This document shows, in pieces, positions 3,360-41,589 of a DNA stretch of 64,000 bases. The stretch's first letter is position 1. Each line of letters opens with the position of its first letter. The translations under genes and the position numbers were made by a program. The notes beneath the pieces were generated by a model. The model worked only from the letters and a program-made list of their open reading frames with translations. It was not told where the DNA came from and searched no databases. The DNA comes from Sutcliffiella horikoshii (GTDB taxonomy: Bacteria > Bacillota > Bacilli > Bacillales > Bacillaceae_I), in contig KV440964.1 in assembly GCA_001636495.1 (NCBI GenBank), forward strand, positions 2,620,666 to 2,684,665, given 5' to 3'.

Positions 3360-3395
3360 GGCTAACTCTAAGGTATATGGAGTTAGCCTCTTTTT
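3360..3395 (+). terminator. Terminator after the MoxR/vWA pair
   Basis: A perfect GGCTAACTC/GAGTTAGCC stem is followed by a T-rich tract. Confidence 0.88.
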
Positions 3396-3412
3396 ATCGG
3401 GAGTGAACATTT

Positions 3413-4069
3413 ATGAATTTTAATATAAGACCTCAAGCGCTTTTCAATACAAGTATCATTCTTTTTTTACTATTCCTATTGGTGGCAGGTTTAACATTGG
3501 TTGAGGGAGTCGCTTCTTGGGACAGTATGATTGGAGAAAGTGTATACAGGTTTGCAGCGATGGATCGATTCTTTATTTTTTTATCATTTATCGGATCAAG
3601 ACTGTTTTTTTATCCTGCTCTAATCACCATTTCAATCGTTCTATTTTATAAGAAAAAATGGGCATTTGCAGGATTCCTATGGTGTAACCTAGTTGGCGTT
3701 CGCCTTTTAAATACATTTTTGAAAAGCATATTTACGAGGGAAAGGCCAGCATTGGACCACATTGTTGAAGCTGGGTATTACAGTTTCCCTAGTGGACATG
3801 CCATGAATTCGATGGCATTTTTTGGTGCACTTGCCATCATGGTATTTTTAAAGGTTAAGATTGATTGGATTAGGAGAGCGGTCATTGCTACCTGTCTATT
3901 ATTGATTTTCCTGATAGGACTGAGCAGGGTATATCTAGGTGTTCATTACCCGTTAGATGTTCTTGGTGGCTTTTTTATGGGAGCATCATGGCTACTTTCG
4001 ATTACTGCAATATTAGTAAAAGCGGAACAGAAGAATAGAAAATTGTTTTCTTTCCATAATAATGGGTAA
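3413..4069 (+). CDS. PAP2-family membrane phosphatase
   Basis: A 218-residue polytopic protein with all three signatures of the PAP2 lipid phosphatase family: KSIFTRERP near residues 103-111, PSGH near 125-128, and SRVYLGVHYPLD near 170-181, which supply the catalytic histidines and the phosphate-binding Arg/Lys. Members dephosphorylate phosphatidic acid, undecaprenyl pyrophosphate or phosphatidylglycerol phosphate on the outer face of the membrane. The sequence alone does not fix the substrate. GGGAGTG lies upstream of the ATG. It stands alone between two terminators on the same strand. Confidence 0.9.
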   Translation: MNFNIRPQALFNTSIILFLLFLLVAGLTLVEGVASWDSMIGESVYRFAAMDRFFIFLSFIGSRLFFYPALITISIVLFYKKKWAFAGFLWCNLVGVRLLNTFLKSIFTRERPALDHIVEAGYYSFPSGHAMNSMAFFGALAIMVFLKVKIDWIRRAVIATCLLLIFLIGLSRVYLGVHYPLDVLGGFFMGASWLLSITAILVKAEQKNRKLFSFHNNG

Positions 4070-36613: not shown

Positions 36614-36651
36614 AATTAAAAACAAGAGCAGCCATAAGGCTACTCTTGTTT
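36614..36651 (-). terminator. Terminator after the 14-residue-repeat gene
   Basis: AACAAGAG-AGCC and GGCT-CTCTTGTT arms overlap the stop codon, with T residues on the minus strand. Confidence 0.82.
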
Positions 36652-37701
36652 CACTTCCACTTTATTTAACTCTTTGTTTGCCGTTTCTTGTGATGGTTTC
36701 TGAATGATTCTTTCCTTCAACCCCACCATACCGGCCAAGTATTGAAGGGTTTGTTTGTATTTACTATCAATGGATAATATGGCTGCCTCTAATTTTTCGA
36801 CTAGCGTCTGTCTTATCATATCCAGTTGTGCCGCCATTTTTTGTGAAGCAATGTCTTGACTATCCATTCTTTCCATCACGGATTGATGGAATATCTCTTG
36901 GATCTGAAGTTTGTCGTTGATCTCGAGATAAAAATGTTCCTGCTCTACTATTCTTGATTGTATATCCTCATAAAGTTCTTCATATTTTTCGAGCTTAGTA
37001 TGAATTCCTCTTGTCAGATCCTCTTGGAATGCTAACTGATCGATGGTAGCTTGGCTCAACAGCTTTTCTTCTTCTACTAACATTTCAAGCTTATCTAATC
37101 TTTTCTCTATTTGCATATTACAGGCTTCGGTTGACAAGATGCTCTCATGAAGTTCATCACTAATACTTGCTTGTGCTTTTAGCTGATCTTGAAGAAGTTG
37201 ATGATTATCGGCATGAGCATCCAATTTGTCAGTTATCTGGCGGTGGACATCGTCATGAACAGTCAACTTGTCAGTTATCTGCTGGTGAACATCGTCATGA
37301 ACAGTCAACTTGTCAGTTATTTGTTGGTGGACATCGTCATTGACAGTCAACTTGTCAGTTATTTGTTGGTGGACATCGTCATTGACAATTAACTTTTCAG
37401 TTATCTGTTGAAGGAAATCTTCATGAAAAAGTAGCTTGTCATTTACATGAAGGTAGTTACTATCATGAACGTTTATTTTTTGAAGCAAATGTTGATGGTT
37501 ATTGTCTTGAACAGTCAACCCTTGTTGAAGATCTTTATTTAATTCTGTGACAGTGGAAGTAAAAGCGAGATTGGTTTCTTCTTGTTGTTTTAAAACTTCA
37601 GTTAAATAATTTTTTCGGTACTCCTGCTGGTTGGACGTACATCCTGTATTTTGATGAAAGATCTTCGGTAGTGGTAGCAGGCCATTATTTTTCTCATTCA
37701 T
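36640..37701 (-). CDS. 14-residue-repeat coiled-coil protein, probably spore surface
   Basis: A 353-residue protein that I do not recognise. From about residue 65 to 176 it consists of eight consecutive 14-residue units, with the form (N/H)DDVHQQITDKLTV nearly identical in units 4-7. Weaker 14-residue periodicity continues to about residue 300 (for example QEHFYLEINDKLQI, QEIFHQSVMERMDS). Fourteen residues equal two heptads, so a long coiled coil is expected, with Ile/Leu core positions alternating with polar His/Asn. No signal peptide. AAGGAG precedes the ATG and a sigma-K-like -10 (CATAAGATA) lies upstream. Next to a CotX operon, so a coat or exosporium role is inferred. Confidence 0.7.
   Translation of the reverse strand: MNEKNNGLLPLPKIFHQNTGCTSNQQEYRKNYLTEVLKQQEETNLAFTSTVTELNKDLQQGLTVQDNNHQHLLQKINVHDSNYLHVNDKLLFHEDFLQQITEKLIVNDDVHQQITDKLTVNDDVHQQITDKLTVHDDVHQQITDKLTVHDDVHRQITDKLDAHADNHQLLQDQLKAQASISDELHESILSTEACNMQIEKRLDKLEMLVEEEKLLSQATIDQLAFQEDLTRGIHTKLEKYEELYEDIQSRIVEQEHFYLEINDKLQIQEIFHQSVMERMDSQDIASQKMAAQLDMIRQTLVEKLEAAILSIDSKYKQTLQYLAGMVGLKERIIQKPSQETANKELNKVEVKQE
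37216..37383 (-). repeat. Four near-identical 42-bp tandem repeats inside the coding region
   Basis: Four in-frame 42-bp units encode residues 107-162 of the repeat protein and differ by few bases. They would allow copy-number change by slippage or recombination without loss of frame. Confidence 0.9.
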
Positions 37702-38936: not shown

Positions 38937-39137
38937 ATGAGGACCTCTCTATGGCGAAAAAGGAGGGGAAGAGGTCTTCATCTGTGGGATGAGGACCTCT
39001 CTTGGGTGAAAAGGGAACAGGAGGGGTTTTCATCCGTGAAATGAGGACCTCTCTAGCTCGAAAAATGAACGAGTGAGGTCTTCATCCATGCAATGAAGAC
39101 CTCTTTACCCTGACTTCCGCTTCACTGAGGTCTTCAT
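38937..39137. repeat. Hairpin array A: four 52-bp palindromic units
   Basis: Left arms ATGA(G/A)GACCTC begin at 38937, 38989, 39041 and 39093, an exact 52-bp period. Each is answered by a right arm GAGGTCTTCAT (or its variant GAGGGGTTTTCAT in unit 2), ending near 38981, 39033, 39085 and 39137. Loops of about 20 bases vary but often contain CGAAAAA. Units are separated by a 6-7 base linker of the CGTGAA type. The rest of the 38750-39295 gap is AT-rich with nothing further recognised. Confidence 0.9.
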
Positions 39138-39295: not shown

Positions 39296-40162
39296 TTATT
39301 GAAGCACTCGCCGGATCACCCGCTTTGCAAGTTTCCCACAGCCCCAGTCATAAATCGCATTTGTAGTTATTTTTATCTCAGGAAACAGTACATTAAAATG
39401 ATGAACAATTCGTAAAATGCGTTTTTCCATCGTTTCTTTTTTCGAGCAGACCAAGCAATAACAGTAAGGTCCCTTAGTAGTAAATTCTAACGAGTCACAA
39501 TACGAGCAAGGGATACCTTTTTGAAGCTCTTCATATTGATAAGAAGGTGGAAGATAAAATGGAGCATTAGGGTTATGAAGGGACTTAAGTTTGTCTGCAA
39601 ATACGTAGTGGCTATTATCTAGTTTTAAAGAGATAGGACGAATGTTTTTTAGGAATCTATTGACCTGACCAGGGTAAACGATTTGTTTGTTGATGGGTGC
39701 TTGATATAGCGTGAATTCGGGGTTTACGAACACTACGTATGATTGAATAGTCATACTATTACCGAGCTGTTGTAACAGTTGTCGCAACAAAGATTCACTT
39801 CTATTAAGTTGAATTAGTGGGTTTGTTACTTCAGATTGTGGTGGAATTTTTGTATAAAGGCGGTCTTGTTCATAAAAATAATCCCCTTCAAAATTTTCCA
39901 CTTCTATTATGTAAAGGGTATCTGGGGCAATGATCAGTGAGTCAATTTGAAAAGTGTTTTTATTGTGGGGGAGAAGTAAGTCGTTAAGAATGAGGCAATC
40001 AGCTTTAATGAATGAAGTCATGCTGTCAAATAGCAATTCTCCCTCGTACCCTTTTTGAAGGGCATAAAGGTGCTTCCTCTCATAATCGAGTAGATTTTTG
40101 CGAGAATTAAGTAATTGATAAACTTCTAACTCGCGGGGTATAGTCCGAGCTTTATATATCAT
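39296..40162 (-). CDS. NERD-domain protein with C-terminal zinc ribbon
   Basis: A 288-residue protein. The NERD (nuclease-related) domain covers about residues 35-150, with KGYEGELLFD (about 37-46) and the core QIDSLIIAPDTLYIIEVENFEG (quoted in part, about 72-93). The usual catalytic ExK reads EVE here, so the Lys is replaced. Near the C-terminus, CSYC (about 219-222) and CYCLVC (about 233-238) form a probable zinc ribbon. NERD proteins are predicted DNA-processing enzymes. AAGGAG lies six bases upstream of the ATG. The gene stands alone between two arrays of the same hairpin repeat. Confidence 0.8.
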   Translation of the reverse strand: MIYKARTIPRELEVYQLLNSRKNLLDYERKHLYALQKGYEGELLFDSMTSFIKADCLILNDLLLPHNKNTFQIDSLIIAPDTLYIIEVENFEGDYFYEQDRLYTKIPPQSEVTNPLIQLNRSESLLRQLLQQLGNSMTIQSYVVFVNPEFTLYQAPINKQIVYPGQVNRFLKNIRPISLKLDNSHYVFADKLKSLHNPNAPFYLPPSYQYEELQKGIPCSYCDSLEFTTKGPYCYCLVCSKKETMEKRILRIVHHFNVLFPEIKITTNAIYDWGCGKLAKRVIRRVLQ

Positions 40163-40273: not shown

Positions 40274-40370
40274 ATGAAGACCTCTCTAACACGGAAAAAG
40301 AACGAGAGAGGTCTTCATCCGTGAAAAGAAGACCTCTCTAGCTCGAAAAAAGAATGAGAGAGGTCTTCAA
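40274..40370. repeat. Hairpin array B: two 52-bp palindromic units
   Basis: ATGAAGACCTCTCT (40274-40287) pairs perfectly with AGAGAGGTCTTCAT (40305-40318), and GAAGACCTCTCT (40328-40339) with AGAGAGGTCTTC (40357-40368). The second unit starts 52 bp after the first, the same period and arm sequence as array A. The loops share CGGAAAAAGAACG-type sequence. Confidence 0.9.
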
Positions 40371-41468: not shown

Positions 41469-41501
41469 AAAAAAAAGAAGGTACCTAAAAAGGTACCTTC
41501 T
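41469..41501 (-). terminator. Strong terminator ending the candidate small RNA
   Basis: Minus strand AGAAGGTACCT, short loop, AGGTACCTTCT, then eight T residues. No gene ends here, so it must serve a non-coding transcript. Confidence 0.9.
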
Positions 41502-41589
41502 GTGCGTATTGAGGCGAGGGACAGCATGACCACATTCATGCCTTGCTCAAAAGAGCGCGTCCATCGACTTACACAATTCAGCTCATCGC
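41469..41589 (-). ncRNA. Candidate small regulatory RNA of about 120 nt
   Basis: On the minus strand a promoter-like TTGCGT-16-TATATT (-35 at 41618-41623, -10 at 41596-41601) is followed by about 120 bases that end in a strong intrinsic terminator. Between them are two further perfect hairpins, GCTC-TTTT-GAGC (41545-41556) and GCATGA/TCATGC (41524-41541), and a C-rich segment GTCCCTCGCCTC (41511-41522) predicted single-stranded. That segment could pair with Shine-Dalgarno sequences. The longest frames in it are spurious. I cannot match it to a named RNA. The rest of the 41409-41803 gap is AT-rich. Confidence 0.6.

Follow-up and report, generated by a model that had tools for sequence, protein, structure and literature searches.

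What kind of element is a tandem array of palindromes with an exact period, and what does its direction on the chromosome follow? Bacterial genomes commonly contain palindrome repeats between their genes, and both the spread of these repeats and their benefit to the host are unsettled. The question is raised here by a 64,000-nucleotide stretch of the genome of the soil bacterium Sutcliffiella horikoshii (the window), in which an earlier note, made from the letters alone, had described four palindromes with an exact 52-bp period.

Structure of the arrays in the window

The arm starts (38937, 38989, 39041 and 39093) and the end (39137) given for the four palindromes proved exact. The hairpin with a variable loop and a linker, also described in the earlier note, measures 11 bp in the arms, 23 nt in the loops and 7 nt in the linkers. 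The left arm is ATGARGACCTC and the right arm is GAGGTCTTCAT, with a T change in the second copy of the latter. TRF reported the array with a score of 190 and a period of 52. The single further TRF row in the rest of the window is a 42-bp repeat within an ORF (353 aa, 36640-37701, repeat at 37207-37427), which has no Pfam match. A second array lies 1.1 kb from the first, with a gene between them:

38937-39137, plus strand: array 1, four 45-nt units with 7-nt linkers, period 52 (TRF, arm parsing)
38937-38981, plus strand: unit 1, loop in the leading-strand orientation (loop consensus)
38989-39033, plus strand: unit 2, loop in the leading-strand orientation (loop consensus)
39041-39085, plus strand: unit 3, loop in the leading-strand orientation (loop consensus)
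39093-39137, minus strand: unit 4, loop reversed relative to units 1-3 (loop consensus)
39296-40162, minus strand: NERD-domain gene (PF08378; Pfam)
40274-40368, plus strand: array 2, two units at 40274-40318 and 40328-40368, the model match to the second spanning positions 3-43 only (DNA search, covariance model)

The genes flanking array 1 are both on the minus strand and the array is in plus orientation. By eye, a pyrimidine-rich terminal unit like unit 4 occupies the same place in five other genomes (G001, G003, G006, G007 and G008). Elsewhere in the window, a BsrF sRNA was detected on the minus strand (41477-41589) with a score above the Rfam gathering score.

A dispersed family in the host genome

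A DNA search of the 4.26-Mb genome that contains the window (G000) returned 80 matches to the array. A pattern search for GAGGTCTTCAT-N7-ATGAAGACCTC with up to three mismatches gave 158 forward matches and none for the reversed pattern, thus the window array is more than a chance arrangement. At least 42 arrays occur in the fetched G000 loci, which are the places found by the DNA and pattern searches, about a dozen further listed places being left out. Searching the genome for the arm with the 52-bp period, as the earlier note had proposed, revealed many intergenic copies and ruled out uniqueness to the window locus; with their conserved arms, these copies bear out its guess of a REP/BIME-like repeat family.

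Across 39 fetched G000 loci we parsed 149 units. The arm spacing is 34 nt in 145 of them, and the linker length is 7 nt in 119 of 123 cases. The unit consensus is ATGAAGACCTC-TGTGACGTGAAAATCGAAGTAGA-GAGGTCTTCAT. Loop identity is 0.81 within loci and 0.51 between loci, therefore the arrays are locally homogenised. The loops share a purine-rich polar consensus, so that each unit has a direction. Thus, the earlier statement that the arms are conserved stands, whereas the loops, which it took to be unconserved, are variable and yet carry a family-wide polar consensus. This polarity is the most informative feature of the family.

A matrix scan of four genomes (G000, G001, G013 and G015) identified 108 arrays with 443 units, and 105 of these arrays have at least two units. 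Unit spacing is 52 in 324 of 335 cases. Only two of the 105 arrays overlap an ORF, based on gene calls made in this analysis as codon-scored ORFs. Several G000 arrays (L010, L011, L014, L022 and L035) have beside them a GC-rich repeat of ~150 bp in inverted orientation, which is also present, by eye, in an array-free syntenic gap of G012 (L144, about 3380-3560) and had no Rfam match in the loci scanned.

Array orientation follows replication

The dnaA gene of G000 is on the minus strand at 553 kb; those of G001, G013 and G015 are on the plus strand at 0.7-1.9 kb. We took the antipode of dnaA, rather than a mapped dif site, as the terminus. Among the 105 arrays with at least two units, a set that is not independent as several are orthologous between the four genomes, 100 are oriented with fork movement. 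Three of the misfits (G000 357522, 400259 and 4056122) have loops that barely discriminate the strands, with mean strand differences of 10.7, 6.2 and 1.7 bits per unit, compared with mostly 30-55 elsewhere. The first of these (L024, contig C1) has loops that resemble a tRNA T-arm (GGGAATCGAACCC), and its orientation is ambiguous. The remaining two misfits, G000 2590899 and G001 2281742, are one orthologous site located ~90-130 kb from the antipode. Since this misoriented copy has been kept in two species, the wrong orientation is tolerated. The reversed unit 4 of the window array, ~20 kb from the dnaA antipode, resembles this misoriented near-terminus site.

A covariance model built from 73 units gave the same picture. 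Agreement with fork direction was found for 144 of 150 among the matches listed, and for 149 of 150 in a second search (the best 150 of 375 matches). When a loop matrix was trained on one G000 replichore, the leading strand scored higher in 327 of 336 test units, which were located by their symmetric arms. Base composition was considered as the sole cause of the polarity and rejected: the loops exceeded the mean of composition-matched shuffles in 322 of 336 units (mean z 1.64; 76 of 79 loci), with z >1.64 in 179 of 336, and their leading-strand purine fraction (0.773) is far above that of the 60-bp flanks (0.519) and the whole loci (0.535). Read on the lagging strand, the loops also beat their own shuffles (mean z 1.8-2.8, vs. 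3.3-4.0 on the leading strand), because the loop ends extend the palindrome; direction is therefore a matter of degree. The GC skew of the loci flips sign with array direction in most cases, the exceptions being 354500, 2547600 and near-zero values.

Array orientation tracks replication and not the flanking genes. Of 103 arrays that could be assigned to a gap (out of 105), 64 are between tandem leading-strand genes, 11 between tandem lagging-strand genes, 23 in convergent gaps and 5 in divergent gaps. Among the gaps of 150 bp or more that have no array in these loci, the corresponding numbers are 70, 10, 12 and 36. The ratio of tandem-leading to tandem-lagging gaps is similar with and without arrays (64:11 vs. 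70:10, p = 0.82), so the arrays have no preference for leading-strand gene pairs; convergent gaps are strongly preferred over divergent ones (p = 1.4e-6). Gene direction as the cause of the polarity was rejected on two classes of gap. Between tandem lagging-strand genes, 9 of 11 arrays point with replication and opposite to the genes (the other two have ambiguous loops), and 21 of 23 arrays in convergent gaps follow replication.

On the 5′ side, 73 of the 105 arrays have a terminator-like hairpin on the same strand within 220 nt, compared with 13, 12 and 13 in three control positions and with 42 of 600 random windows. We considered targeting of terminators and rejected it, as insertion limited to the free gap between terminator and promoter explains the asymmetry.

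Distribution and turnover

Copy numbers from the genome searches are lower bounds, and absence means that none was detected. With the best 62 or fewer candidates considered per genome, covariance model matches occurred in 10 of 101 genomes. All 10 are among the 16 Sutcliffiella genomes, leaving six of that genus and all 85 genomes from outside it with no array detected. Three perfect units in direct succession, used as a search pattern, matched 26 stretches in 84,980 named species genomes, all in Sutcliffiella horikoshii CH28_1T, biET1 and KcN35-3 and in Bacillus sp. RO1. A mobile carrier of the family was sought and rejected, as neither 72,556 plasmid records nor 50,697 phage records gave a match, and nor did the viral contigs, searched with an exact pattern.

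At the window locus, arrays are present in six of 15 relatives (G001, G003, G006, G007, G008 and G013), and the remaining nine have none there. Two arrays enclose the NERD gene in G000, G001, G003, G006, G007 and G008; G013 has an array at this locus and lacks the gene. In relatives the NERD gene block is lost or absent both with and without arrays. About 10 array sites are common to G000 and G001, which, together with the six Sutcliffiella genomes in which no array was detected, speaks for turnover and dispensability of the arrays. We found neither a clean empty site nor a target duplication for any array; the relatives are ~80% identical, and at the syntenic gap their flanks are too diverged to resolve exact array boundaries.

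Sister arrays and an insertion sequence

TRF, run on 227 fetched sequences (1.36 Mb, overlapping), revealed further 51-53-bp arrays with other arms. A joined query of these sister arrays has dispersed copies in G000, G001, G013 and also G009. The last genome is without the ATGARGACCTC-arm family, yet has sister arrays, including one with 20.6 copies and different arms (L276, C1 about 3849050-3850120). The sister set comprises 29 TRF rows, corresponding to 26 arrays of which three are split by an insertion sequence (IS). Judged by purine content, on which their orientation rests, the leading strand is the purine-rich one in 25 of 29 rows (23 of 26 arrays), the exceptions being L153, L225 and L264. 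Many sister arrays have GAAAA in the loop.

The IS is 1.5 kb long and encodes a Mutator-family transposase (PF00872); we take it to be IS256-type. We found five intact copies in G000 (C1 217830, 2232233, 2319921, 3972572 and 4033522), eight in G013 (L210-L226) and one degraded copy in G007, and none in G001, G008 and G015. Each of the 13 intact copies is bordered by an exact target duplication of 8-9 bp. Once the flanks are joined, 11 of the 13 prove to be inside a 52/53-bp array (or a 104-bp multiple); of the other two, L222 abuts an array end and L216 is about 50 bp from an array. Thus, the arrays apparently serve this IS as insertion sites.

Origin and possible function

A family that is dispersed, phased and locally homogenised, and whose polarity follows replication independently of gene direction, is best explained as a REP/BIME-like non-autonomous repeat with strand-specific insertion at replication forks and local amplification. 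We give this reading a probability of roughly 45%. The units would spread as non-autonomous mobile DNA via an enzyme that acts on one strand only, and the simplest substrate would be the single-stranded lagging-strand template, where hairpin formation by the unit is possible. Through slippage or unequal crossing-over the arrays could then lengthen and shorten, and copies near promoters may be lost to selection. In an excerpt of PMC6006769, IS608 and ISDra2 are described as inserting into the lagging-strand template. Of the features of IS200/IS605-type insertion, strand polarity is seen here, and the target and empty site are obscured by the divergence of the relatives.

A Y1 (IS200-like) transposase, encoded by a single gene in each genome, is only a candidate for the enzyme, and the evidence does not tie it to the arrays. 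Its gene occurs in all 16 Sutcliffiella genomes, including the six without detected arrays, and no units were found near it at 20 Y1_Tnp loci from the 16 genomes (~3.3 kb each; best score -13.1). With the gene alike in array-bearing and array-free genomes and no units nearby, we rejected a RAYT link. Structural details count against mobility through a hairpin. The arms lack compensatory changes, and their most frequent mispair, A.C at column 5/41, leaves 23 of 73 units unpaired there and breaks the pairing on the leading-sense strand, which is the expected single-stranded template. Moreover, near-invariant arms next to flanks with ~20% divergence are not predicted by selfish drift alone.

The strongest competitor, which we regard as possible though doubtful, treats the unit as a putative directional binding site for a translocase or chromosome-organising protein, with its orientation selected as in KOPS/SRS. 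With a period of 52 bp, or about five turns of DNA, the units would face the same side of the helix. The near-absolute polarity with exceptions close to the terminus, the nearly invariant arms and the likewise polar sister families (25 of 29 TRF rows, 23 of 26 arrays) are consistent with such a role. So is the purine content of the loops (77% on the leading strand vs. 52% in the 60-bp flanks), which has the same sense as GAGAAGGG, given as the SRS octamer in a portion of PMC5869595. However, this octamer is absent from the unit consensus and is polar outside the arrays by itself (12 leading vs. 3 lagging in 658 kb). Detection of arrays was also confined to 10 of the 16 genomes from a single genus (best 62 or fewer candidates per genome), and a misoriented array has been kept in two species. 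An insertion bias is favoured by the tolerance of a misoriented copy and by the patchy distribution. Selection is matched equally well by arms that hardly vary and by sister families that are polar too, hence our limited confidence in the mobile repeat. A protein-binding array, one of the options in the earlier note, is possible. Somewhat less probable again is a wider version, in which a putative genus-wide superfamily of phased 51-53-bp tandem arrays, differing in arm sequence and sharing a polar purine-rich loop, would mark replication direction on both chromosome arms via a dedicated protein and the Mutator-family IS would land there.

It is improbable that the arrays are topological elements resembling BIME-2, in which gyrase or a nucleoid protein on phased palindromes downstream of genes would relieve supercoils. 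This putative role draws on the binding of gyrase by BIME-2 tandem units, as stated in part of PMC2817692, and on the placement of the arrays between unidirectional or convergent genes, a 5′ terminator-like hairpin accompanying 73 of the 105. That asymmetry, however, is expected from any insertion restricted to the space that separates a terminator from the next promoter, and the arrays point with replication in lagging-strand gene pairs as well.

A structured non-coding RNA or 3′-UTR element, the last option of the earlier note, is very unlikely. The single-strand folding energies of the array are far below those of shuffles (z -8.7 and -7.2), as any tandem inverted repeat would show, yet there is no compensatory signal. 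Arm pairs are standard in 93.9% of cases vs. 94.2% in shuffles, and compensatory changes in the arms occupy two cells vs. 4.6 expected from shuffles. The RNAalifold consensus of the units is only -1.55 kcal/mol, no Rfam family matches the window array, and the arrays usually lie beyond the terminator. Within the ATGARGACCTC-arm family it is the sequence that is conserved, and not the pairing. A degenerate CRISPR array with a 29-bp palindromic repeat and 23-bp spacers is extremely unlikely despite the regular period, as there are dozens of arrays and the would-be spacers, far from being mutually unrelated, share one consensus within and between them (loop identity 0.81 and 0.51).

Comparison with known repeats

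In searches of an open-licence library we found no publication on this palindrome family, the listed papers with the arm strings being judged by their title and the start of the abstract. Among repeats of Bacillaceae, bcr1 and other Bacillus MITEs are dispersed and non-coding; by description they are set apart from the present family, as they are not tandem 52-bp palindromes. An excerpt of PMC3733652 names bcr1 among the Bacillus MITEs.

The closest kind is REP/BIME, described in parts of PMC3733652 and PMC2817692 as short palindromes with many intergenic copies, regular clusters and a preference for unidirectional and convergent gaps. Like REP, BIME and REPIN sequences with RAYT, the Sutcliffiella units are short, intergenic, clustered palindromes of high copy number in unidirectional and convergent gaps. 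They differ in lacking a conserved GTAG tag (GTRG occupies positions 30-33 of the unit in 49 of 424 cases, and most units have it in 11 of 101 loci) and in that the Y1 gene is not flanked by units. The exact 52-bp period and the orientation that follows replication also distinguish them from REP/BIME.

With KOPS/SRS the family shares the origin-to-terminus orientation on both chromosome arms (100 of 105 arrays) and a purine-rich leading strand. KOPS/SRS, however, are dispersed 8-mers in many genes, whereas the Sutcliffiella unit has 45 nt and occurs in intergenic tandem arrays in part of one genus. Strand-specific orientation relative to replication is likewise reported for IS200/IS605 elements in a section of PMC6006769; unlike them, the present unit has no transposase gene and forms tandem arrays. 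The Bordetella BRE repeat is also intergenic with a variable tandem copy number, but according to a passage of PMC3110155 it is not co-oriented with the replication fork, as the Sutcliffiella arrays are.

The near-uniform direction of the arrays suggests that replication either places them or uses them. As this polarity goes with replication in four genomes, whichever way the genes run, it becomes testable whether forks place such repeats or whether the repeats are marks of chromosome direction. The apparent insertion of the IS into the arrays provides a natural target system.
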